Below, one piece after another: positions 5,682-59,754 of a stretch of DNA of 59,754 nt; position 1 is the stretch's first letter; every line of letters begins with the position of its first letter. This DNA is from Acidimicrobiaceae bacterium (GTDB lineage: Bacteria; Actinomycetota; Acidimicrobiia; Acidimicrobiales; RAAP-2). Below the pieces are notes generated by a model that was given only the letters and a program-made list of their open reading frames with translations, was not told the origin of the DNA and searched no databases. The stretch is taken from assembly GCA_003155915.1 (NCBI GenBank), contig PMFA01000021.1, forward strand, positions 174,268-234,021, given 5' to 3'. The translations under genes and the position numbers were made by a program.

Positions 5682-6941
5682 ATGACTGAAATCCTCCATC
5701 TCTCCACGTTCTTGCACCGACCGATATTCGATTCGGACGGCGACCGGATCGGTCGCGTCCAAGACCTGGTCGCACGACTCGGCGACAACTCGCATCCGCC
5801 GGTGGTGGGCGCGGTCATACGCATCGAGGGCCGGGACCTGTTCGTGCCGATTCGAAAGATCGGCGGCCTCAGCGAAGGTCGCATGACCTTCCAGGGCAAG
5901 CGCGTCGACCTACGCCGCTTCGAGCGTCGTCCCGGTGAGCTCTTACTCGCCGAAGACCTGCTGGCGCGCCACCTGATCAACCTGGTGCGAGGTCGCCTGA
6001 TCACCGCGAACGAGATCGAGATCGCCCAGATCGACAACAAGTGGGAGGTCGTCGGAGTCGACCCGGGCAAGCGACCGCTCCTGCGTCGGATCCTCGGCCA
6101 GAACGTCGGTCAGCACGTGAAGTCCGAGGCCATCGTGGACTTCGCCTCTATCGAGCCTTTCGTCGCACACGTACCCACGGCCCGATTGCGCATTCCCTAC
6201 CGCAAGCTCTCGAAGCTTCACCCGGCCCAGATCGCCGACCTCGTCGAGCAGGCCAGTCACGAAGAGGGCGAGGAGATCATCGAGGCGGTGGGCGCCGACC
6301 GTGAACTCGAGGCCGATGTCTTCGAAGAACTGGACACCACCCACCAGATCGAGTTCCTCGAGGCTCGTAGCGACGCCGACGCCGCGCGACTGCTCGCTCG
6401 CATGGAGCCCGACAACGCGGCCGACCTCATCAGCGAGATCGACCAGGACCGTCGTCTCCCGATTCTCGAACGTCTGCCCGACGTCCAGAAATTGAAGGTC
6501 CGTCAACTGCTCTCCTACAGCGCCGACAGCGCCGGCGGCCTCATGAACCCCGACTTCGTGTCCGTGCCGGCGACCGCGACGGTCGCCGACGCGCTCGAGG
6601 CCATTCGCACGTCACGGGTGCCGGCCGAAGCGTTGCACACGGTCTTCGTCGTGGACGAGAATGGACAGCCGATCGGCGCGGCGTCGATCGCGCCACTCGT
6701 GCGCGCCCCGGGTCACGAACTCGCCTTGAGCGTCTCGCGCACGCACCTGGCCCACGTCCACCCGCACTGGGACCTGCATCAGGTGTCGCGAATAATGAGT
6801 GACTTCAACTTGACGGTGTTGCCGGTGCTCGACGAGGACCATTCGACGATGATCGGTGTTGTAACAGTGGATGACCTACTCGAGGAGTTGCTGCCGCACG
6901 GTTGGCGACGCGAGTTCGGCATGACGGCGGGCGAAGAATGA
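5682..6941 (+). CDS. Orphan MgtE N-domain / CBS protein with PRC-barrel, no channel
   Basis: A 419-residue soluble protein. Residues 1-85 resemble a PRC barrel (FDSDGDRIGRVQDLV), the middle 150-275 is the MgtE intracellular N domain (superhelix with EEGEEIIEAVG and LARMEPDNAADLISEI), and 280-405 is a CBS pair ending in VVTVDDLLEEL. In MgtE these domains sense Mg2+ and gate a five-helix channel; here the channel is absent and the protein stops at GWRREFGM. The next gene, 174 bases on, is an NRAMP-family transporter with altered metal ligands. I infer that this protein senses Mg2+ and gates or regulates that transporter. Confidence 0.88.
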   Translation: MTEILHLSTFLHRPIFDSDGDRIGRVQDLVARLGDNSHPPVVGAVIRIEGRDLFVPIRKIGGLSEGRMTFQGKRVDLRRFERRPGELLLAEDLLARHLINLVRGRLITANEIEIAQIDNKWEVVGVDPGKRPLLRRILGQNVGQHVKSEAIVDFASIEPFVAHVPTARLRIPYRKLSKLHPAQIADLVEQASHEEGEEIIEAVGADRELEADVFEELDTTHQIEFLEARSDADAARLLARMEPDNAADLISEIDQDRRLPILERLPDVQKLKVRQLLSYSADSAGGLMNPDFVSVPATATVADALEAIRTSRVPAEALHTVFVVDENGQPIGAASIAPLVRAPGHELALSVSRTHLAHVHPHWDLHQVSRIMSDFNLTVLPVLDEDHSTMIGVVTVDDLLEELLPHGWRREFGMTAGEE

Positions 6942-6970
6942 CGCGCCGTATCCCGTGGGGTCACGTTCAA

Positions 6971-6992
6971 AGGGGGCTCACTGAAACCCCCT
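6971..6992. terminator. Small GC hairpin between the MgtE-N and NRAMP genes
   Basis: AGGGGG at 6971-6976 pairs with CCCCCT at 6987-6992 across a 10-nt loop. No T-run follows, so it would be a weak terminator or an RNA-stability element in the 174-base gap. No known metal riboswitch core was recognised in the rest of the gap. Confidence 0.35.
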
Positions 6993-7115
6993 AGTACAAC
7001 CTTCATTCATTGCGTCCCGGCACGATCGCACACGAACTCTTCGGTAGGCCACTAGCCCTCCTTCGAATCTCGTCGTGGGCGTGCCGCACCACTACGAGAA
7101 CAGAAAGGAGGAAGC

Positions 7116-8693
7116 GTGAGCGAAGCAACGAAGGATCAGATCAAGGGTGCTTTCGGCACCGTCAAAGAGTACGAACCGGGAATCCGCCGCGGTACCCGTG
7201 CACGCCTCCTCACGCTCCTGGCGATCATTGGACCAGGACTCATCGTCATGGTGGGCGACAACGACGCCGGCGGCGTCTCGACGTACGCCCAGGCCGGTCA
7301 GAACTTCGGCTACACGCTGCTCTGGACGCTGCCCCTGTTGATACCGGTCCTGATCGTGAACCAAGAGATGGTGGTACGTCTCGGTGCCGTGACCGGCATC
7401 GGTCACGGCCGACTCATCCGAGAGCGCGTTGGTCGTCGCTGGGGCAATGTCTCGATCGGCTCGATCCTCCTGCTCAATTTCTTGATCATCATCACCGAGT
7501 TCATCGGCATCTCGTTGTCGATGGAGTACTTCGGCGTGTCGGCCTTCGTGTCCGTGCCGATCGCCGTGGTGGCCCTCTTCGGCGTCACCGCGACGGGTTC
7601 GTTCCAGCGATGGGAACGCTTCATGATGCTCTTCGTCGCCGTGAACGTGGTGATGATTCCACTGGTCCTGCACGCCCACGTCGCCACGCACTCGCTGTTC
7701 CGTGACCTCGCCGTACCGGGCATTCGGGGCGGCACGTCCTCGGCGGGCGTGTTGCTCATCATCTCGATCATCGGCACGACCGTCGCGCCGTGGCAGCTGT
7801 ACTTCCAGCAGAGCAACATCGTCGACAAGAAGATTTCGCCACGTTGGTTGAACTACGAACGTATCGACACGATTCTCGGTTCCTTCGTCGTGGTGATCAC
7901 TGCGGCCTTGTTGATGGGTATCACCGCGGCCGGGTTGTCGCATCACGGCGGCACGAACAGCTACGTCAACGCTCTTAGTGTTGCTCACGATCTCACAAAA
8001 TTCGTGGGACACAGCACCGGCGACCTTTTCGCCATCATCTTGTTGAACGCCTCGATCATCGGCGCCGCCGCCGTCACACTGGCGAGTAGTTACGCCGTCG
8101 GCGATCTCTCTAATCGCTTCAATCAGGGGCTAAACGTTCGACTGCGCGACGCCAAGGGCTTCTACAGTGTCTTCGGAGGACTGTTGGTGGTCGCCGGGAC
8201 CGTGGTGCTGATACCTCACGCACCGCTGGGACTCATTACCTTGGCGGTACAGGCCATGTGCGGTCTGATGCTGCCCAGCACGTCGATTTTCGTCTTATTG
8301 ATGGCGAATGACCGAGAGGCACTCGGTCCGTGGGTCAACGCGCGCTGGTTGAACGCTGTCGCCGTAGTGATCATCGCGATTCTCGTGGTGCTGTCGGTGG
8401 TGATGATGGTCTCGACGCTGTTCACGTCAGTCAACGTGGTGGCGATGCTCGAATGGGTGGGCGCCGTCGTGGGACTCGGCGTACTCATCGGTCTGCCCAT
8501 TGGACTACGCCGTCAAGGACCGCGCGCTCATTACGACCTCGACCGCCTCGACTGGCGCATGCCGCGACTGGCCTTGTTGGAACGACCGAAGCGTTCGCGG
8601 GCGCGCCACTGGCTCTTGATCGCAATTGGGACCTATTTGAGCGTTGCGGGAACGTTGCTGGCCGTGCGAATCATCCAACTGGCGACCTCGTAA
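7116..8693 (+). CDS. NRAMP-family divalent metal transporter, NRMT-like (Mg2+?)
   Basis: A 525-residue membrane protein with about 11 hydrophobic segments and NRAMP landmarks. In helix 1 the usual D-P-G-N is D50-A-G-G53, and in helix 6 the usual M-P-H is A224-P-W. The Asn and Met that favour Mn2+/Fe2+ are therefore lost. Family knowledge: NRAMP-related Mg2+ transporters (NRMTs) also lack that methionine. With the orphan MgtE-N/CBS gene just upstream I infer Mg2+ uptake. The GTG start has an excellent GAAAGGAGGAAGC site. Confidence 0.88.
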   Translation: MSEATKDQIKGAFGTVKEYEPGIRRGTRARLLTLLAIIGPGLIVMVGDNDAGGVSTYAQAGQNFGYTLLWTLPLLIPVLIVNQEMVVRLGAVTGIGHGRLIRERVGRRWGNVSIGSILLLNFLIIITEFIGISLSMEYFGVSAFVSVPIAVVALFGVTATGSFQRWERFMMLFVAVNVVMIPLVLHAHVATHSLFRDLAVPGIRGGTSSAGVLLIISIIGTTVAPWQLYFQQSNIVDKKISPRWLNYERIDTILGSFVVVITAALLMGITAAGLSHHGGTNSYVNALSVAHDLTKFVGHSTGDLFAIILLNASIIGAAAVTLASSYAVGDLSNRFNQGLNVRLRDAKGFYSVFGGLLVVAGTVVLIPHAPLGLITLAVQAMCGLMLPSTSIFVLLMANDREALGPWVNARWLNAVAVVIIAILVVLSVVMMVSTLFTSVNVVAMLEWVGAVVGLGVLIGLPIGLRRQGPRAHYDLDRLDWRMPRLALLERPKRSRARHWLLIAIGTYLSVAGTLLAVRIIQLATS

Positions 8694-8702
8694 TCTCTCA
8701 GG

Positions 8703-9515
8703 ATGGCATTCGCCCCCACGCTCATGTGTGTCCACGCGCACCCCGACGACGAAGCGCTCTTTACCGCCGGCATCACGTCGCACTACGGCGATCTCGGGTA
8801 CCGCGTCGTGTTGATCACCTGCACGAATGGGCAGTTGGGCTTCGACGACCACGGCCGACCGGGATCGGATCCGCGACACGACGTCGAGGTCGCGCGCGCC
8901 ACTCGAGCCGGGGAGTTGCAGCGCGCCGCGATCGTCGCCGGGTTCTCTCGGGTGGCCACGCTGGGCTACGACGACTCGGGCATGAAGGGCTGGGCGCAGA
9001 ACGATGGACCGAACGCATTCATGAACGCCGACGTGGACGCCGTGGCGCGAACGCTGGCCGCGATCATGGATGAGGAGCGCGCGTCGGTCGTGGTCACCTA
9101 CGACGAGAATGGTTTCTACGGACATCCCGATCACATCATGGCCAACGTCGTCACGCGCGCCGCTCTTGGTTTCGCCACCAGCCCGAAGCGTCTGTATTAC
9201 CCCGTCGCTCCCAAGGGCGTTCTGGAGACGTTCGTCACGGGAGCCAAGGCCAAGGGCGTCTTTCTCCCGGCCTGGATTCTCGACGCCGGACACACCGTCT
9301 CGGACGACATCGTCTCGACGACCATGGACGTACGCTCCTTCGCCAAGCGCAAACGTCAAGCGATTGCCACGCACGCTTCACAAGTCGACAATGCCGACCT
9401 CGTCACAATGGACGAAGAACTCTTTACGCTGTTATTTGGCATCGAGTACTACCAGCGTGCCTGGAGCCGTGATGTGACATCCGGCGATGAGACTGATCTC
9501 TTTGGAGGACTGTAA
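8703..9515 (+). CDS. PIG-L family deacetylase (LmbE-like), copy 1
   Basis: A 270-residue zinc-dependent N-acetylglucosamine deacetylase-type protein with the metal motif HAHPDDEA near the N-terminus and the distal YGHPDHI motif. Family members deacetylate GlcNAc-inositol (MshB) or cleave mycothiol conjugates (Mca). It begins 9 bases after the NRAMP gene and abuts a close paralogue, so the three may be co-transcribed. Which step it performs is not decided by the sequence. Confidence 0.85.
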   Translation: MAFAPTLMCVHAHPDDEALFTAGITSHYGDLGYRVVLITCTNGQLGFDDHGRPGSDPRHDVEVARATRAGELQRAAIVAGFSRVATLGYDDSGMKGWAQNDGPNAFMNADVDAVARTLAAIMDEERASVVVTYDENGFYGHPDHIMANVVTRAALGFATSPKRLYYPVAPKGVLETFVTGAKAKGVFLPAWILDAGHTVSDDIVSTTMDVRSFAKRKRQAIATHASQVDNADLVTMDEELFTLLFGIEYYQRAWSRDVTSGDETDLFGGL

Positions 9516-10376
9516 ATGGAACAGCTGACTTTTCTCGCCGTGCACGCTCATCCGGATGACGAGGCGAGCTCCTCGGGCGGCCTCTACCGTCTGCTCGCGG
9601 ACCAAGGCGTGCGAACAGTGCTCGTCACCTGCACCAACGGCGAATGCGGCGACGCCCTCGACGGCGCCAAGCCCGACGCCGATCATCATGACGGCGACGA
9701 AGTCGCCGCGATTCGTGCGATCGAACTCGACAATGCGGTGAAGATTCTCGGTATCAGTCGCCTGGTGCGACTCGGCTACCGGGACTCGGGTATGAAGGGC
9801 TGGCCGCAGAACGACGACCCCGAGTCGTTCTGGGCGACGCCGGTCGACGTGGCGGCGGCGAAGCTGGCCGAGACGTTGATGGAAGAGCGTCCGCAGGTCA
9901 TCATGACCTACAACGAACACGGCTTCTACGGACACCCCGATCACATCCAAGCTCACCGAATCACCGTCAAGGCGCTCGAGATGATCGACTACGAACCGAC
10001 GCTCTATTTCAACGCGATTCCTGATTCTGTCTTTGTCGAGTGGCGCAAGCGCTGGGAACAAGAGGACCGTGAACGCGCCGAAGCCGACGCGGCCAAGGGT
10101 ATCGTCCGCGAGCCCGAGACACCTGACCCTGATGAAGAAGCGTTTGAGATGGGAACGCCCGACGATGCAATCTCGGCCACCATCGACATCAGCGACGTTA
10201 ACGGCGCGAAATTCGACGCCCTCGAGGCGCACGCCTCGCAGATCGCGGACTCCTTCTGGATGAAGATGGGTCGCGAGCGTTTCATCGAGACCATGCGCAC
10301 CGAGTGGTTCGTTCGCGTGACGAACCCGAAGAATCTTGAAGGCAACGTTGACGACATCTTCGCGGGCTATCGCTAG
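9516..10376 (+). CDS. PIG-L family deacetylase (MshB/Mca-like), copy 2
   Basis: A 286-residue paralogue of the preceding gene, with HAHPDDEAS, YRDSGMKGWPQND and HGFYGHPDHIQAH in the same order. Its ATG follows the upstream TAA without a gap, and a GGAGGA site lies in the end of that gene. The longer acidic C-terminal part and the overall length fit Mca or MshB of mycothiol metabolism. Two tandem copies could divide the deacetylase and amidase roles, which is inference. Confidence 0.87.
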   Translation: MEQLTFLAVHAHPDDEASSSGGLYRLLADQGVRTVLVTCTNGECGDALDGAKPDADHHDGDEVAAIRAIELDNAVKILGISRLVRLGYRDSGMKGWPQNDDPESFWATPVDVAAAKLAETLMEERPQVIMTYNEHGFYGHPDHIQAHRITVKALEMIDYEPTLYFNAIPDSVFVEWRKRWEQEDRERAEADAAKGIVREPETPDPDEEAFEMGTPDDAISATIDISDVNGAKFDALEAHASQIADSFWMKMGRERFIETMRTEWFVRVTNPKNLEGNVDDIFAGYR

Positions 10377-53980: not shown

Positions 53981-54363
53981 CTTGTGCGCGTTGGAGGAGA
54001 TAGACGTCCGTGAAGTGTCTCGTCGAAGGGTACTTCGCGATGCAAATGGGGAGGAATCCCTCGGTCCCGGCCACGGGTCGTGAACGATAGAGAGATGCCT
54101 CGAAGCACAACAGTTTGTGCAAAGCAGGCAAGTACTCACTCGCTACCGGAGACATGACTTGATCTGGCCGGCGTCTGGAATTGAGTTGGTCTTGCTGGAG
54201 TAATTAAGGACGAACTAGAGCCCCCCTCGTAGCGTAGACCTGGACTCTCCATGATTGAATGGTGGTGTGGAGTAGGTAATTGTGGTGTGGCTTTCTGTCG
54301 TTGTGGTGCTGAAGTGGTGCTGGGAAGAGCACTAACTCGTCAACAGTGACAAAAGGCCAGGAA
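53981..54363. other. Non-coding stretch left of the attachment site
   Basis: No gene is visible. It should contain the original promoter of the tRNA-Arg gene whose 5' half remains at 54364. GTGGTGTGG-like words recur between about 54260 and 54330 (GGTGGTGTGG, TTGTGGTGTGG, TTGTGGTGCT, AGTGGTGCT) without a strict period. Confidence 0.5.
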
Positions 54364-54401
54364 TGCTCCCGTAGCTCAGGGGATAGAGCATCGGTTTCCT
54401 A
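54364..54401 (+). repeat. Left attachment site (attL): 5' half of tRNA-Arg
   Basis: These 38 bases are identical to 59707-59744 and reach from the first acceptor base to the last anticodon-loop base of the tRNA. The next bases (TCCGAAGAATCGTG) do not continue the tRNA, so this copy is a truncated gene without 3' half. Chromosomal sequence lies to the left. Confidence 0.85.
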
Positions 54402-54711
54402 ATCCGAAGAATCGTGTGGTGGCAACTCGCAAACGTTGGCATTGCTGGGTTTCTAATTGATGCGCGGGTCGGAACACGCATCGAACTTGAAAGGAAATGG
54501 AGCAAAATTGGAGCAAGATTGGGGAAAGCGCGAGGTTGAAATTACTTCGCGACTTTGCTAACCAGGTTGCTTGGGCACTCCAAAGGCAATTCGTCGTCGC
54601 CGACCGAACTTGTGCCCTGGTAGTCCCCTTTACCCTCGCTCGATTGAGAAAGAGCTAGCGCATGAGATCGGATTTTGACGTACGATCGGGAAGATAATTG
54701 GGGGTGGGTGC
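54402..54711. other. Left non-coding end of the element
   Basis: Apart from the 11-bp repeats at 54495-54527 I see no gene in these 310 bases. The promoter of the secreted-protein gene at 54712 must lie here. Confidence 0.5.
54495..54527 (+). repeat. Three 11-bp direct repeats near attL
   Basis: AAATGGAGCAA (54495-54505), AATTGGAGCAA (54506-54516) and GATTGGGGAAA (54517-54527) are tandem units with an 11-bp period, about one helical turn. The same word occurs twice beside the right border. They sit about 95 bases inside the element and look like integrase arm sites or excisionase sites. Confidence 0.7.
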
Positions 54712-55827
54712 GTGATATATCGATTCAAGGCGTCGCGCATTGTGATGGCATTCATTGTCGTCATGGTGCTCGTAACTACGACCGTGGAAGTCGGAGTTGA
54801 TAATGCGTCTGCTCAAGCGAAAAGTTGTCCCGAAGGCGTGAGCGCCTACACCCTCCCGTCAACCAGCATTAGCGTGTGTGGATTCACGGAGATCCCTCGA
54901 AGTGCGGTCACGTCGCTTCCGGATGGGGGCAGTGGCTACACCTATGACCTGGCAAATGGAGCAAGCGCCACGATTGTAGTTCCTCCCCCCGGGTTTGATC
55001 CCGCCAACGCTTCGAGTTCAGAGTTAGCCACGTACGGGATACCAAGTCAACCAAGCTCGGCGCCGGCGTTAGCAGATTGGCTTACCAAATACAGCAACAT
55101 TAACTACCCAACACCACCGGCGGACCTAATCGAGACGCCGGTCGAAGCCTCCACCGTGCCACGCACTTATGCAGGCTGGATAAGTGATACATCGTCGAAT
55201 ACGGCAACTCTTGCGTACTTCACCCAACCGAGTGCCTCGCTTTCTATGTGCACCGGCGGAGGTGGCTATTCTTTAGGAGGCATTTGGACCGGTCTGGGAG
55301 GCACGAATACTCAGTACCTCGCGCAAGATGGAACTTTCTTTGGATCTAATTATCCCGGCGTTTCCAATGGCCAGTTCTTCTTTGAATTTGCCCCCAACCC
55401 TCCCGATGAAAATTCGGCGGGAACTGTTAATTTGAACACTTCGGCGGCCGTCGGCGACAGCGTTGAAACTCAAATTGCTTACGATGGTGGGCTTCTCTAC
55501 AACGTGAACATTAACGACTGGACGAGTGGCAAAGCTTACGATGTCTTGATGACAGCGCCGAGCGGATTCCGACCTGATGGATCATCTGCTGAGGTAATCG
55601 TGGAGTCTCCCGTGGTTGATTTGCAGGGTGACAATTCAGATTTGCCGTACTTCACTCGGATTGCAATCAACAGTTCGGAAGTTAAAACGGGAGGGAATTA
55701 CGTGTCAATGGACAACTCCAGCGCCTTTTACGTCAACATGAAGGACGCGGCTGGCCTGTTTCAGGCAACACCCACTCAAATTCAAAGCAGTGGCAATTTT
55801 TTTGTAAATTACCAAACGTGCAAGTAG
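54712..55827 (+). CDS. Secreted protein resembling G1/A4 (eqolisin) glutamic peptidases
   Basis: A 371-residue protein starting at GTG 54712 behind GGGGGTGGG. It has a signal peptide (about residues 1-35, cleavage near ASAQA). A pro-region-like part (about 36-150) is followed by a beta-rich domain: GGIWTGLGGTNTQYLAQDGTF, FFFEFAPNPP, VGDSVETQIAYDGG, SSAEVIVESPVVDL and LPYFTRIAIN. In eqolisins the order is W-x-GxxG...LQTG, YEWYP, AGD, AEWIVE and FG. Gln205 (LAQDGT) and Glu294/Glu298 (AEVIVE) would be the catalytic dyad. Family membership is inferred by motif order only. GC is lower than in the host genes, consistent with cargo. Confidence 0.6.
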   Translation: MIYRFKASRIVMAFIVVMVLVTTTVEVGVDNASAQAKSCPEGVSAYTLPSTSISVCGFTEIPRSAVTSLPDGGSGYTYDLANGASATIVVPPPGFDPANASSSELATYGIPSQPSSAPALADWLTKYSNINYPTPPADLIETPVEASTVPRTYAGWISDTSSNTATLAYFTQPSASLSMCTGGGGYSLGGIWTGLGGTNTQYLAQDGTFFGSNYPGVSNGQFFFEFAPNPPDENSAGTVNLNTSAAVGDSVETQIAYDGGLLYNVNINDWTSGKAYDVLMTAPSGFRPDGSSAEVIVESPVVDLQGDNSDLPYFTRIAINSSEVKTGGNYVSMDNSSAFYVNMKDAAGLFQATPTQIQSSGNFFVNYQTCK

Positions 55828-56011
55828 CTCAACGTCATTGGTGCTCGGCTTTTTCAGATTTCCATTGAAGAACCAATCTGCATTCTGTCGCACAACCGTG
55901 CGGAGGACGGGGAATGGAAACTCATTGTGTTCCGAAATTTCGGGCATGTCCGATTCCGAAGGCATTCCACGCCCAGTCTCTGAGGTTCGTGCGAGTTAGA
56001 ATCAAGCGCAG

Positions 56012-56533
56012 ATGACGAATTCCGAACCGAATGAATCGTCGCTTAGCGCGCGATCAAATGCTGGCCGTTGGTTGACGAAGATGCTCGCCTTGGCTGTTGC
56101 AGTGTTGATAGTAAGTGTCTCACTCTTTCTTCTGCACCGTTCAGAAAATAACGGTGCAAGCGGAAAGACGTCGCCGCTGGTCTTGAAACTCGTAGGTGAT
56201 GGGTGCAATTGGTCGTCCTCGGACGGAGTAAAAATCAGTCCCAAGGACGGTTGGTATTGCGGAGCAAATTTGACAATCACTAATAAGTCGCGTCGTGTTG
56301 TTGAGTTAAACGCTCGGCACCAAGAAGCCATTTCGGCAAACTCCGATGTGTATTACGCAGACTTCTTCCTTAAAGAATTGCAACACGAGAGATTGGTCAG
56401 AATTGATTCAAAGTCGACCGTTAATATGTCGGTTTACTTTACACTTCCACGCCACACCCGTCCCCGATTTCTTTTGATGCGGACGAATAATCCGGCGTCA
56501 CAATTTGTTATTCCGCTGAAGTACGCCAAATAG
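56012..56533 (+). CDS. Membrane-anchored small extracytoplasmic protein
   Basis: A 173-residue protein: a polar N-terminus, one membrane helix (about 23-41, MLALAVAVLIVSVSLFLL), then an outside domain with two Cys (GDGCNWSS and GWYCGANLTITNKS) that could form a disulfide. The LTITNKS-R-VVEL segment and later FTLPRHTRPRFLLMRT resemble the beta-sandwich of DUF4352-like domains. The function is unknown. It lies between the peptidase-like gene and rep, so is probably cargo. Confidence 0.7.
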   Translation: MTNSEPNESSLSARSNAGRWLTKMLALAVAVLIVSVSLFLLHRSENNGASGKTSPLVLKLVGDGCNWSSSDGVKISPKDGWYCGANLTITNKSRRVVELNARHQEAISANSDVYYADFFLKELQHERLVRIDSKSTVNMSVYFTLPRHTRPRFLLMRTNNPASQFVIPLKYAK

Positions 56534-56620
56534 CATCGCTCATCTTCTTGAAAGACGTAAAGGCAAGTTACGCATAAGCACGCTGTACAAGTTCTGATCA
56601 CCCAACGACCTCGCCTCCTT

Positions 56621-56652
56621 TGGGCCGTTGGCGCGCAGCGCCAAGAGGCCCA
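56621..56652. repeat. Strong hairpin, candidate rolling-circle origin
   Basis: TGGGCC (56621-56626) pairs with GGCCCA (56647-56652), and inside it TTGGCGC (56628-56634) pairs with GCGCCAA (56638-56644) over a GCA loop, giving 13 pairs with a small internal bulge. An alternative stem CCAACG (56602-56607) with CGTTGG (56626-56631) competes. Rolling-circle origins often present a nick site in such hairpins; a terminator is the other reading. Confidence 0.5.
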
Positions 56653-56900
56653 ACCTGAAGACCGTCAATAATCACCCATTTCGACTCGTCGTCAGTGGTG
56701 CGACATTCGTGGGAAAATTTGCACCGATCAGCACACTCGGAGAATCGTCATATGGGACTGCAATCGGTGTCCAAGACTCTCGTAATCGACGACATCATTG
56801 GCGTCCAATCGAGCAAATTCACGAACGTTGTGGGGATGCTCACACGGCGAAAAAGTTACGCGCGGATGGTAGGCGGGATCGCTTCGGCACCACACAAATG

Positions 56901-56930
56901 TGTCCGCGGCTGTCCGCCGGTGTCCACGGT
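56901..56930 (+). repeat. Three 10-bp tandem repeats upstream of rep
   Basis: TGTCCGCGGC, TGTCCGCCGG and TGTCCACGGT lie head to tail with a strict 10-bp period, 104 bases before the rep start, and a GT begins a fourth unit. The helical period suggests binding of a protein on one face, either an operator for rep control or iterons. Confidence 0.55.
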
Positions 56931-57033
56931 GTACCGAATTCGAAGTTGTAACAAAGAATCTGTTCCATTTCGCCTTTTAGGAGTGGCTTAGTAAGTAGAG
57001 GAGCAATTTATTTCCTCTCCGAAAGGAGCCACC

Positions 57034-58296
57034 ATGATCCACCGAAAGTCGACTCATGAACTAGTGAAGGACATCAATGAAGCCGGAGGGTGCTCGCACC
57101 CGATCCGACTGCGCGGGGAATTCGTCAACGTCGCCACTGGCGAGGTCAACGAGCGTCCGCTACTCGTCGCCTGCAAGGACCGCCGTGCGGTGCTCTGTCC
57201 TTCGTGCTCCTACCTCTACAAGGCGGACGCTTGGATCGTGGTCTCGACCGGTCTTATCGGTGGCAAAGGCGTGCCGGCGTCAATCAGTGATCACCCACGA
57301 CTCTTCCTCACCCTCACGGCCCCCTCGTTCGGCACGGTCCACGCCCGCAAAAGCGACGGCTCTTGTCAACCCGGTCGGCTCCGCTTCTGCAAACACGGCC
57401 GCGTCCAGTCCTGTTCGCGACACCACGACGACGCCGACTCGGAGATCGGCAGTCCGCTCTGTGACTTCTGTTACTGCTTCGCGGACGCGGTGCTCTGGAA
57501 CGCGGAGTCCTCACGTCTCTGGAACAGGACTTTTGAGCAGATTCGACGTCGCCTGGCCATCGCTCTCGGCGTCCCTTTTGAAGAGCTCTCACAGCACGCC
57601 CGACTGAACTACCTCAAGGTCGCCGAATTCCAGCGTCGTGGACTCGCGCACTTCCACGTTGTTCTTCGCCTCGACGGAACGGGCGAACCCTTCAGCCCTC
57701 CGCCTCCAGAACTCACCACGGAACTCCTCGCCAGCATCATTCACAGCGTGGCGAAGGAGTTCTCCGTGACGGGTCCTCGCGGGACCATCTCGTGGGGCCG
57801 GCAGATGCAGGTGTCCGACGCGTCAACGCTCGATCGTGACGACTTGCGCATCGCGGCCTACGTGGCCAAATACGCCACGAAGTCAGCTGACGGTTCGCTC
57901 GACTTCGCTCGGCGATTCAACGCTCGAAGCGAGATACTGAAACTCAACGCTCCCTCGCACCTTCAACAGTTAGCGCTGACCGCCTGGGACCTCGCCCAAG
58001 ATCCCTCCCTCGAGTCGTTGAACACTCGTGGTCACGCGCACGCCTTCGGATTTCGCGGGCAACTGATCACCAAGTCTCGCCACTACTCCACGCGCTTTCA
58101 GGACCTCCGTGACGCTCGTGCGGAGCACATGAAATCGCCTCACTCCGACGACCCGGTCGAAGGCTCCTTCAGCTACGACGGTCGAGGCTACGACGATCCG
58201 CGCGCCACCGCGATCGCCGAATTCTTGCACCAGCTGTCCGTCGAATCACGCAAGTCGACATCCATCGGCATCACAGGTGCCACCGATGGGGAGTGA
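57034..58296 (+). CDS. RepSA-type replication initiator (rolling circle, HUH-like)
   Basis: A 420-residue protein with a zinc-like start (CPSCSYLY and further CDFCYC), motif 1 FLTLTAPSFG (Phe91 on), the HUH-type motif GLAHFHVVLRLDG with His206-Phe-His208, and the catalytic segment YVAKYATKS with Tyr276 and Tyr280. These are the marks of the RepSA family that nicks the origin and drives rolling-circle replication of excised actinobacterial elements. The ATG follows GAAAGGAG. GC content is as in host genes. It overlaps the excisionase-like gene. Confidence 0.92.
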   Translation: MIHRKSTHELVKDINEAGGCSHPIRLRGEFVNVATGEVNERPLLVACKDRRAVLCPSCSYLYKADAWIVVSTGLIGGKGVPASISDHPRLFLTLTAPSFGTVHARKSDGSCQPGRLRFCKHGRVQSCSRHHDDADSEIGSPLCDFCYCFADAVLWNAESSRLWNRTFEQIRRRLAIALGVPFEELSQHARLNYLKVAEFQRRGLAHFHVVLRLDGTGEPFSPPPPELTTELLASIIHSVAKEFSVTGPRGTISWGRQMQVSDASTLDRDDLRIAAYVAKYATKSADGSLDFARRFNARSEILKLNAPSHLQQLALTAWDLAQDPSLESLNTRGHAHAFGFRGQLITKSRHYSTRFQDLRDARAEHMKSPHSDDPVEGSFSYDGRGYDDPRATAIAEFLHQLSVESRKSTSIGITGATDGE

Positions 58297-58495
58297 CGTG
58301 TCGCTACGGGTAGGAGACATGCCCTTGCCACAATTAATGTCGCCCGACGATGCAGCCGAGTATCTCGGAGTCAGTGCTTACACGGTGCGACAAAGGCTCA
58401 AGAGCGGAGAGATTCCCGGGAGGAAGCACGGAGCCCGATGGCTAATTCGCGTCGTTGACTTGATTCACTATGTGGAACCCAACAACCGCGCTTGA
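58286..58495 (+). CDS. Excisionase-like helix-turn-helix protein
   Basis: About 69 residues with a winged HTH of the excisionase/MerR type: SPDDAAEYLGVSAYTVRQRL then GEIPGRKHGARWLIRVVDL. Such proteins bend DNA at attL/attR to direct excision. Starts at GTG 58277, ATG 58286, GTG 58298 and ATG 58319 are possible; the first two overlap rep. It ends 7 bases from the convergent integrase gene. Confidence 0.85.
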   Translation: MGSDVSLRVGDMPLPQLMSPDDAAEYLGVSAYTVRQRLKSGEIPGRKHGARWLIRVVDLIHYVEPNNRA

Positions 58496-58502
58496 TCCAT
58501 CG

Positions 58503-59657
58503 TCACTGTGGACCCTTGATGACACTGGCGAGAATCCCCGCGGCTGCCTTTTGCCTCTCTGTTGAGGCGTGCGCGTAGACCCGTAAGGTCAGCGACGGAT
58601 CTGCGTGGCCCAACATTTCGGCTGCGTCATGGGGTGAGACACCTCCAGCCAGAAGCTCTGTTGCGGCGAAATGGCGAAGCGAATGAAGGTGGACCGACTT
58701 CATCCCCAGTTGATCGGCAACCTTTCGCACCTTGCGCGATACGGCGTCGAGGTTGACGAACCTCGAACCGTCAGGTTGAGACGACAATACGAAAGATTCG
58801 GGAGTTAGATGAACGCCCCATTCGGTTGCGCGCTCCACGCATTGACCATGCCAGTACTGAAACCACTCCTGCACTGATTGATCTAAATGGACCACTCGAT
58901 CTCTTCCAGTCTTTGTCGACTTGATGCCGGTGACGCCCTTGACTGCGTACGCACTTTGACCAATGATCAAGACATCACCCCGGAACGAGTTCCATCGAAG
59001 CGCGGCAATCTCTCCTCGACGACATCCCGTAACGGCGGCCAGGAAAACGAAGGCCCCTAAGAGATCATCCATGGCTTGACAAGTTGAGATCAAAAGTCTC
59101 GCTTGCTCGGGTGAGGGTGACTCAATCCTCAGAGGATTAGCTTCGGGGAGCGTTGCCCGCAGCGCTGGATTTTTGTCTATCCATCCCCAGCGAACACCCT
59201 GATTCAGTGCGGCTGAGATGACATTGTGAATGTTTCTGATCGTTCGCGGGCTTTTGCCGGCGCTCGAACTCTTGCCGTAGAGGGTGTCAAGTTGATGCGG
59301 CGTGAGATCACTGATCTTCACGTTTCCTAACGTGCCCTTGATGTGATGGTCGATAAGACTCTGATATCCGTTCAGCGTGGTCGGAGATCGTCCGCGACCG
59401 GTTTGAAACTTCATCCATTCCGTCAGCAGCTGATTGAGCGTCGCCGAAGTTCCAGTACCTACTTGATCCACTTCGGACAGAATCTTTCGCGCCTTGGCTT
59501 GAGCGGCAGACTTGTTCTTCGCTGTAATCGTGACGCTTCGACGTCGGACCTTATTCGTAACGGGATCAATGCCGAGGACGAATCGAAACATCCACTTGCC
59601 ACTGCCAGGAGGACGTTCAACGAGTGAGCCTGTACCATAGGAGCGTCTCGTTGCCAT
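58503..59657 (-). CDS. Tyrosine integrase
   Basis: A 384-residue phage-type integrase. The N-terminal part (VERPPGSGKWMFRFVLGIDP) is the arm-binding AP2-like domain, then a SAM-like core-binding domain (about 70-150), then the catalytic domain with Arg in VTGCRRGEIAALRW, HSLRHFAATEL, and the nucleophile Tyr in GHADPSLTLRVYAHAS. It catalyses integration at the tRNA site. Its start lies 49 bases from the tRNA, and its promoter region holds two 11-bp repeats. Confidence 0.95.
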   Translation of the reverse strand: MATRRSYGTGSLVERPPGSGKWMFRFVLGIDPVTNKVRRRSVTITAKNKSAAQAKARKILSEVDQVGTGTSATLNQLLTEWMKFQTGRGRSPTTLNGYQSLIDHHIKGTLGNVKISDLTPHQLDTLYGKSSSAGKSPRTIRNIHNVISAALNQGVRWGWIDKNPALRATLPEANPLRIESPSPEQARLLISTCQAMDDLLGAFVFLAAVTGCRRGEIAALRWNSFRGDVLIIGQSAYAVKGVTGIKSTKTGRDRVVHLDQSVQEWFQYWHGQCVERATEWGVHLTPESFVLSSQPDGSRFVNLDAVSRKVRKVADQLGMKSVHLHSLRHFAATELLAGGVSPHDAAEMLGHADPSLTLRVYAHASTERQKAAAGILASVIKGPQ

Positions 59658-59675
59658 TTCTGCACCCTATCGAAA

Positions 59676-59697
59676 GATTGGAGCATGATTGGAGCAA
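59676..59697 (+). repeat. Two 11-bp direct repeats near attR
   Basis: GATTGGAGCAT (59676-59686) and GATTGGAGCAA (59687-59697) are tandem, in the same orientation as the set at 54495-54527. They lie between the integrase start and the tRNA, thus in the only DNA that can hold both promoters. Confidence 0.7.
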
Positions 59698-59706
59698 AGG
59701 GTCGAA

Positions 59707-59744
59707 GCTCCCGTAGCTCAGGGGATAGAGCATCGGTTTCCTAA
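59707..59744 (+). repeat. Right attachment site (attR) within the tRNA
   Basis: These 38 bases are identical to 54364-54401. Identity ends exactly at the last base of the anticodon loop (59744 A, then A against T). To the left the flanks differ at once (GAA against AAT), so the shared segment is the tRNA 5' half only. Confidence 0.85.
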
Positions 59745-59754
59745 ACCGTGTGCG
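59707..59754 (+). tRNA. tRNA-Arg (anticodon CCT), 3' end outside window
   Basis: GCTCCCG acceptor strand, TA, D-arm GCTC-AGGGGATA-GAGC, and anticodon arm TCGGT-TTCCTAA-ACCG are seen, with anticodon CCT at 59740-59742. The window stops within the variable region, so the T-arm and acceptor 3' strand are not visible. Its first 38 bases are shared with attL. Confidence 0.85.

Follow-up and report, generated by a model that had tools for sequence, protein, structure and literature searches.

A small, probably integrative element bordered by the 5' half of a tRNA-Arg(CCT) gene in an Acidimicrobiaceae bacterium

The element and its genes

A unit of 5,342 bp with five main open reading frames (ORFs) was identified at the end of contig PMFA01000021.1 of an Acidimicrobiaceae bacterium. 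The window, which is the whole stretch of DNA that was analysed, comprises 59,754 nucleotides (nt). The unit is bordered by two exact copies of a 38-nt direct repeat (Table 1) that corresponds to the 5' half of a tRNA-Arg(CCT) gene: it starts at tRNA base 1 and closes with the final base of the anticodon loop. It is very probably (about 85%) a small integrative element, inserted by a tyrosine integrase in the anticodon-loop region of tRNA-Arg(CCT), with a flipped core and with the gene rebuilt from the 5' half that the element brings.

The ORFs encode a tyrosine integrase, an excisionase-like protein, a RepSA-type replication initiator and two cargo proteins. The integrase start codon lies 49 bp from tRNA base 1, and transcription is directed away from the tRNA. 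Matches of the integrase in the PDB include XerA (5hxy), 1z1g, which we take to be lambda Int, and other integrases; the residues R..K..HxxR..H..Y, presumably those of a tyrosine recombinase, were seen by eye in its translation. The NCBIfam RepSA equivalog scores the initiator at 271 bits, under its cut-off of 700. Relatives of the initiator on plasmids are mostly from Streptomyces (16 of 21 records) and show 37-40% identity among the ten matches listed. The 371-aa cargo protein has no match in Pfam, NCBIfam or PADLOC and is matched in five other genomes of the 99 searched. No FtsK/SpoIIIE-type Tra was found among the five main ORFs, to which the scan was confined. For want of such a Tra beside the RepSA-type initiator in this set, the element is not filed as an actinomycete integrative and conjugative element (AICE). 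A pattern search of IMG/VR gave 0 matches.

Both ends of the element carry a pair of direct repeats of the type ATTGGAGCAA, which are putative arm sites of the integrase. With at most one mismatch, ATTGGAGCAA has seven matches in the window against 1.82 expected, a number reached in 0 of 100 shuffles; four of the seven lie at the element ends, one in the cargo (54955) and two outside the element. A candidate promoter element of the rebuilt tRNA gene, TGTACCAT, lies within the 5' coding end of the integrase gene, and a similar TGTAnnAT stands at equal distance in several related right ends that lack an integrase.

Table 1. Features of the element and its borders (window coordinates)
Feature	Position	Strand	Evidence or remark
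Flank left of the target tRNA gene, probably native	54225..54364	+	Likeness to upstream of intact genes in G012, G036 and G072
attL core: displaced tRNA-Arg(CCT) 5' half, stub	54365..54402	+	Exact repeat, no tRNA 3' half after it
Left-end conserved sequence, type A, starting TCCGAAG	54403..54489	+	Aligned (A1) to 16 further left ends
Two arm-like direct repeats, ATTGGAGCAA	54496..54516 (54496-54505, 54507-54516)	+	
Cargo, 371-aa protein, family unassigned	54712..55827	+	Signal-peptide-like N-terminus by eye
Cargo, 173-aa protein	56012..56533	+	Weak DUF4352, E 0.0028, below Pfam cut-off; hydrophobic N-terminal stretch by eye
RepSA-type replication initiator	57034..58296	+	PF20199, E 9e-112, 374.8 bits (cut-off 34)
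Excisionase-like helix-turn-helix protein	58277..58495	+	PF12728, E 4e-14; TIGR01764 excise, 38.1 bits (cut-off 28.8)
Tyrosine integrase	58503..59657	-	PF00589, E 1e-20; PF14659; PDB matches; tree
TGTACCAT, candidate -10 box of the rebuilt tRNA gene	59631..59638	+	Within integrase 5' coding end
Two arm-like direct repeats, right end	59677..59697 (59677-59686, 59688-59697)	+	Right-end alignment
attR core: tRNA 5' half supplied by the element	59707..59744	+	Exact repeat
Expected crossover interval (tRNA positions 29-38)	59735..59744	+	Allele junctions in L184 and L130
First 10 nt past the repeat (ACCGTGTGCG), contig end	59745..59754	+	Continuation as in complete genes of relatives

The border repeat

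Two matches of the 38-nt repeat were obtained in 0 of 100 shuffles. The extended repeat reaches 54406 and 59748 with 41 of 42 nt identical. Identity sets in precisely at tRNA base 1, as the preceding base is T in one copy (54364) and A in the other (59706). The original prediction, made from the sequence alone, had recognized the border repeat as a tRNA 5' half extending to the end of the anticodon loop; the repeat itself was right, whereas its left start had been placed at 54364, one base early. In relatives the identical 5' half forms the start of tRNA-Arg(CCT) genes that ARAGORN calls as complete. The window holds a 5' tDNA fragment in the orientation of the tRNA; the intact tRNA, which here would reach past the contig end, is present in L102, L184 and other relatives (G and L numbers denote genomes and loci, respectively).

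The two copies continue differently. The left copy reads on as AATCCGAAG, the sequence past 54402 being TCCGAAGAATCG, and no tRNA 3' half was found there, in keeping with the earlier description of this copy as a dead stub. The right copy is followed by ACCGTGTGCG and then by the contig end at 59754; in relatives, the 5' half followed by ACCGTGTGCG or ACCGTGAGCG forms a complete tRNA-Arg(CCT) gene. Position 39 is T in the stub (AATCCG) and A in the right copy. A perfect inverted repeat centred on CCT, CGGTTT-CCT-AAACCG, spans 59734-59748. The element end carries a tRNA 5' half, in support of the earlier proposal that the element supplies it. ARAGORN called no tRNA in the window. A matching 3' half was found nowhere else in the 2.52-Mb assembly, where the two nearest sequences (2 mismatches) are tRNA-Arg(CCG)-type 3' halves; since the contig ends at 59754, we infer the intact right-hand gene.

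Crossover position and empty sites

The position of the crossover is suggested by alleles of relatives. Genome G108 (L184) carries two tandem units; CATCGG..AATCCG stands in the first stub, CAATGG..AATCCG in the middle copy and CAATGG..AAACCG in the intact tRNA. If each insertion leaves resident sequence on the stub's left and on the intact gene's right, the crossover falls at tRNA positions 29-38, and the alleles of L130 (G035) are compatible with the same interval. The crossover would therefore lie in or beside the anticodon loop, close to where it had been predicted, at the loop end. The intact gene of G108 has the D-loop variant AGTATGGA, which is otherwise found in element copies (type 1) of G035, G109, G079 and G061. 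The element half thus seems to have replaced the host half, and the gene is still called tRNA-Arg(CCT) by ARAGORN.

Sequence like the left flank of the window abuts intact tRNA-Arg(CCT) genes in G012 (L112; blastn 36 nt, 86%, E 2e-4) and in G036 (L133; 84 nt, 73%, E 8e-4), and the upstream sequence of G072 (L254) aligns with the window flank in the same way. The three genomes belong to the same genus but to different species, and the matches are weak and stand at the expected place. The three intact genes serve as the empty sites that the original prediction proposed to look for in relatives. A second form of flank (370-490 bp, 67-72%) is common to intact genes (G026, G029) and to stubs adjoined by elements (G005, G023), and on this alignment represents the same contrast between filled and empty sites. 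This upstream sequence, named type 2 and marked by CGCGGA repeats and a TAGGCT box, was first taken as the right end of a cassette; native flank is the better reading because it is common to stubs and intact genes alike.

The Fic unit of L124 (G030; 6209-7903) combines a type-A left end with a native-looking type-2 right end, counter to the native-flank reading. The Fic gene of G108, 78.1% identical to that of L124, has a type-1 end, and the homology halts about 160 bp before the core. The HipA genes of G005 and G094 show a comparable change within the last 150 bp; right ends may be exchanged here.

The integrase group and its orientation

Integrases of the window type (46-75% identity) were detected in five other genomes (G063, G069, G006, G085 and G104), which with the window's own makes six of the 99 genomes of the genus; the next best match past this set shows 40% identity. 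In each of the six, the start lies 49-69 bp upstream of tRNA base 1 and the gene is directed away from the tRNA. The targets are tRNA-Arg(CCT) in five cases and tRNA-Ser(GCT) in one; three of the six were placed via a core match, their contigs stopping inside the tRNA gene. An FtsK/SpoIIIE gene adjoins RepSA in the relative from G069. RHS repeats occur in L104 and DUF6531 in L105, and the integrase-bearing relative in G006 may have a long RHS-type gene as cargo, split across these two contigs.

A tree was built from 45 integrases (30 loci of one search and 15 of another), mostly the best match per genome out of many more matches. The six window-type integrases form one group with a support of 100/100. 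Among the other 39 integrases, 30 have a tRNA within 400 bp and nine do not; all 30 lie at the 3' side of the tRNA, on the same strand. For three of these 30 (L045, L049 and L051), which belong to other families of the order, the tRNA in question is tRNA-Arg(CCT) itself. New here is an integrase group whose six members all diverge from the 5' side of the tRNA, with a core that seems to have been flipped once. The simplest reading seems to be that the core was reversed once with respect to the integrase and the arms, and the near-palindromic CGGTTT-CCT-AAACCG would make such a reversal easy.

A second family of integrases (429-496 aa), weakly similar and outside the tree, was found upstream of tRNA-Arg(CCT) in G008, G009, G023 and G073. 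In L119 (G023; 6253-9720) an intact tRNA-Arg(CCT) gene has related integrases of 429 and 478 aa on its 3' and 5' sides, and this single tRNA gene may be a target from both ends. The spans examined in L241-L244, other integrase-bearing loci, contained no second att half.

A shared insertion site

The core was compared in 85 copies from 42 genomes (fetched loci and the window), 35 of which were classed as intact. Left ends like that of the window (type A) number 26 in 17 genomes at E <= 1e-5; the model was built on 17 of these 26 matches, one match at E 0.0037 was excluded, and two of the 26 have no core alongside. The window-type integrase is present in three of the 17 genomes (G063, G006 and the window's own, G000). 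The corresponding right ends (type 1) number 19, of which 16 served to build the model, with L211 (E 1.3e-5) just past the cut. An integrase adjoins the core at two of them and is absent at 17, two of these 17 having less than 1 kb of upstream sequence.

Five units combine type-A left ends with type-1 right ends and contain no integrase match. They carry HipA (2,078 bp, G005), an SBF transporter (2,811 bp, G008), SulP (2,973 bp, G035), Fic (1,766 bp, G108) and AbiEi/AbiEii (2,165 bp, G108), respectively. PADLOC identified the Fic protein as SoFic and the nucleotidyltransferase as AbiEii, and matched an AAA/DUF4143 protein beside a type-A end in G035 to PDC-S01. A Pfam scan of the main ORFs of the five units revealed no transfer gene; in keeping attL and attR without an integrase match or a transfer gene among these ORFs, the units resemble a cis-mobilizable element (CIME), and the one-sided homology described below would be a comparative trace of mobilization with or by a related element. 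The finding that such units share both ends with the window element is new here. Gene directions in the units are mixed (in L184, Fic is forward and AbiE reverse). The integron reading was set aside since the genes are not unidirectional like cassettes and the integrase scores 27.7 bits with the NCBIfam integron integrase model against a cut-off of 265.

Remains of the first integrase codons were sought at the 17 integrase-less right ends. They are clear in three (L107, L223 and L220; 0/100 shuffles), weak in five (L102, L125, L196, L106 and L184_3037; 1-6/100 shuffles) and indistinguishable in nine; four integrase-bearing ends, used as a positive control, gave 0/100 shuffles. At least some of the integrase-less ends are thus deletion derivatives.

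Homology between loci was assessed in pairs from different genomes with at least 300 nt of homology touching the core and with sequence available on the other side; same-genome pairs, hits off the core and pairs with less than 300 nt on the opposite side were dropped. All 23 qualifying pairs are one-sided (8 left, 15 right) and none is two-sided; they comprise 14 stub-stub, three stub-intact and five intact-intact pairs and one at an N gap. The homology edge lies within the core (-26 to +44) in all 14 stub-stub pairs, which represent about seven independent locus sets; this pattern, too, is new here. For example, G035 and G109 have 4 kb in common at 98.5% identity, ending at the core, and share nothing past it (2.3 kb available). 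Rightward homology only, with a type-B left end, was found between G079 and G075 (97.5%) and between G009 and G077 (94.8% over 6 kb). Small gene packages, to judge from these edges, appear to be exchanged between species at this site. The five intact-intact pairs, a control against over-reading, are also one-sided, so synteny around tRNA-Arg(CCT) is low in general; three of them, left-only, end at the tRNA 3' end (+73 to +77), outside the core. Two partial cases, G009-G109 (-150 to +1028) and G005-G079 (-555 to +153), fit neither class.

Several assemblies are disturbed at the repeat. L200 (10664), L209 (8132) and L219 (8473) have Ns in or at the tRNA core, as if scaffolds had been joined across the repeat, and several further contigs end at the core. 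Thirteen records with a type-A site bear the titles Acidimicrobiaceae (6), Actinomycetes (2) and Acidobacteria or Acidobacteriota (5), the last of which look doubtful, judging by the shared sites.

Interpretation of the element

In the proposed mechanism, a tyrosine integrase would insert the element at the anticodon-loop region of tRNA-Arg(CCT). The attP site would hold the tRNA 5' half and probably a promoter too, so that the 5' half of the host is stranded as the left stub and the gene is rebuilt on the right from the 5' half of the element and the 3' half of the host. The rebuilt gene would then exist and be expressed in this genome, and the element could excise as a circle. The arrangement, the reverse of the usual one, may have arisen by a flip of the near-palindromic anticodon stem-loop core with respect to integrase and arm sites, a flip that would be carried by one integrase group.

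Several points weigh against this mechanism. The contig stops 10 nt past the repeat, so no rebuilt gene is seen in this genome. One copy in L204 (2501) carries the ACCGTGAGCG continuation and reads AAACCGTGAGCG like an intact gene, yet lacks the rest of the tRNA with its 3' half; the first bases past the repeat are therefore no proof of an intact gene. The CCT gene may be dispensable, given the presence of a tRNA-Arg(TCT) gene. Scans of both element ends with the sigma-70 consensus gave no promoter, the right end included. With regard to the flip, a duplicated 3' half was found in one of 12 3'-side loci checked (G038; 45 nt, 5.0 kb apart), most spans being short, and for the remaining 3'-side loci the side was assigned from geometry. 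No duplicated half was found in the 9 kb examined around the tRNA-Ser(GCT) member. The second integrase family is also at the 5' side, so the flip is not unique to the window group.

The two 5' halves might instead mark the old insertion of a decayed, immobile remnant, as would suit the lack of a transfer gene among the five main ORFs and the many relatives at the same site without an integrase, three right ends of which keep only its recognizable first codons. This remains an unlikely reading, since the frames of integrase and RepSA are uninterrupted over the entire match and no base differs between the two 38-nt halves; that the contig breaks at the core would fit mixed population states and proves nothing. 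It is still less probable that both copies are stubs in an array and that the true intact tRNA-Arg(CCT) gene is missing or elsewhere. Such arrays are known in relatives (L184, L107 and L124), the contig ends inside the gene, and the L204 copy illustrates a stub that resembles an intact gene. The right copy, however, reads AAACCGTGTGCG like the intact genes of relatives, whereas nearly all other stubs diverge from the bases after CCTAA or CCG onward, and the assembly search gave no other copy of the CCT anticodon region.

A duplication of the tRNA half-gene by homologous or illegitimate recombination, with the integrase uninvolved, can by itself yield a direct repeat. It would hardly account for an integrase start 49-69 bp from the tRNA 5' end in six of six group members, for the same left-end sequence in 17 genomes, or for the 14 qualifying stub-stub pairs, all of which show one-sided homology that breaks off within the core. 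Plain duplication was dropped on the last of these grounds, and it has almost no likelihood beside insertion by the integrase with a flipped core.

Comparison with known systems

The original prediction that most tRNA-targeting integrases use the 3' half is borne out by Islander, in which 3,760 of 3,919 islands have a 3' fragment and 159 a 5' fragment, and 2,083 islands have anticodon-centred sites (PMC4383910). The 5'-fragment islands likewise take the 5' half from the element; no flipped integrase group or multi-family hot spot is described in the passages of the Islander account that deal with them (PMC4383910). Integrases of the archaeal pTN3-like type also have a tRNA 5' half as attB, and by the account of a review the rebuilt gene is expressed from the integrase promoter (PMC8371274, PMC5495485). 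These are archaeal plasmid integrases, and the likeness considered here is one of arrangement. A comparable 5'-half case is seldom met in bacteria, according to the part of a review that treats it (PMC8371274). Insertion at a 5' half is therefore known but rare, and the flipped group and the possible platform for exchange across species are of specialist interest.

Small tRNA-borne AICEs of the pSAM2 type hold the same gene set of int, xis-like and RepSA (PMC3218068). The window element differs in that it lies at the 5' instead of the 3' side and that no FtsK-type Tra was found. AICE-type elements were reported only in Actinomycetales in the relevant part of a 2011 survey (PMC3218068), whereas six of the 13 relative records here are labelled Acidimicrobiaceae. 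Tyrosine integrases of actinobacteriophages likewise act at tRNA genes with strand exchange near the anticodon loop; their core typically takes in the 3' half or, where it is too short for the gene to be rebuilt, the phage brings a whole tRNA (PMC10865867), whereas the window core is a 5' half.

Arrays of islands at one tRNA-like gene are known from the tandem accretion of CIMEs, where some units lack integration genes and keep their att sites, like the integrase-less relatives described here (PMC5704250). The ssrA islands of Dehalococcoides also form arrays in which some units without integration genes keep att sites (PMC3146451). They depend on a serine recombinase and the 3' end of a tmRNA gene, whereas a tRNA 5' half and two families of tyrosine integrases are involved here. 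A literature search joining a tRNA 5' half, an integrase and a genomic island gave no publication, and novelty of the hot spot is claimed only within the literature searched.

The group offers a worked case of an integrase that would have changed sides at a tRNA, from 3' to 5', the start codon still facing the core and the core being reversed. Change of integration site, an old question, becomes testable by site swaps. A variant of element type occupies half of an intact tRNA gene in a relative, and the site appears to be one where species exchange anti-phage and toxin-antitoxin genes, the breakpoints falling at a tRNA half.

Other loci in the same genome

Two identical 28-nt tRNA-Arg(CCG)-type 3' halves are located 8.7 kb apart on the same strand of another contig (G000:C28:120642-120669 and 129364-129391), the second lying in an intact gene. 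The pair looks like a conventional 3'-side island. A second RepSA gene (G000:C16:71048-72214) lies 1.5 kb from a tRNA (C16:69458-69528), and this locus is perhaps another integrative element.

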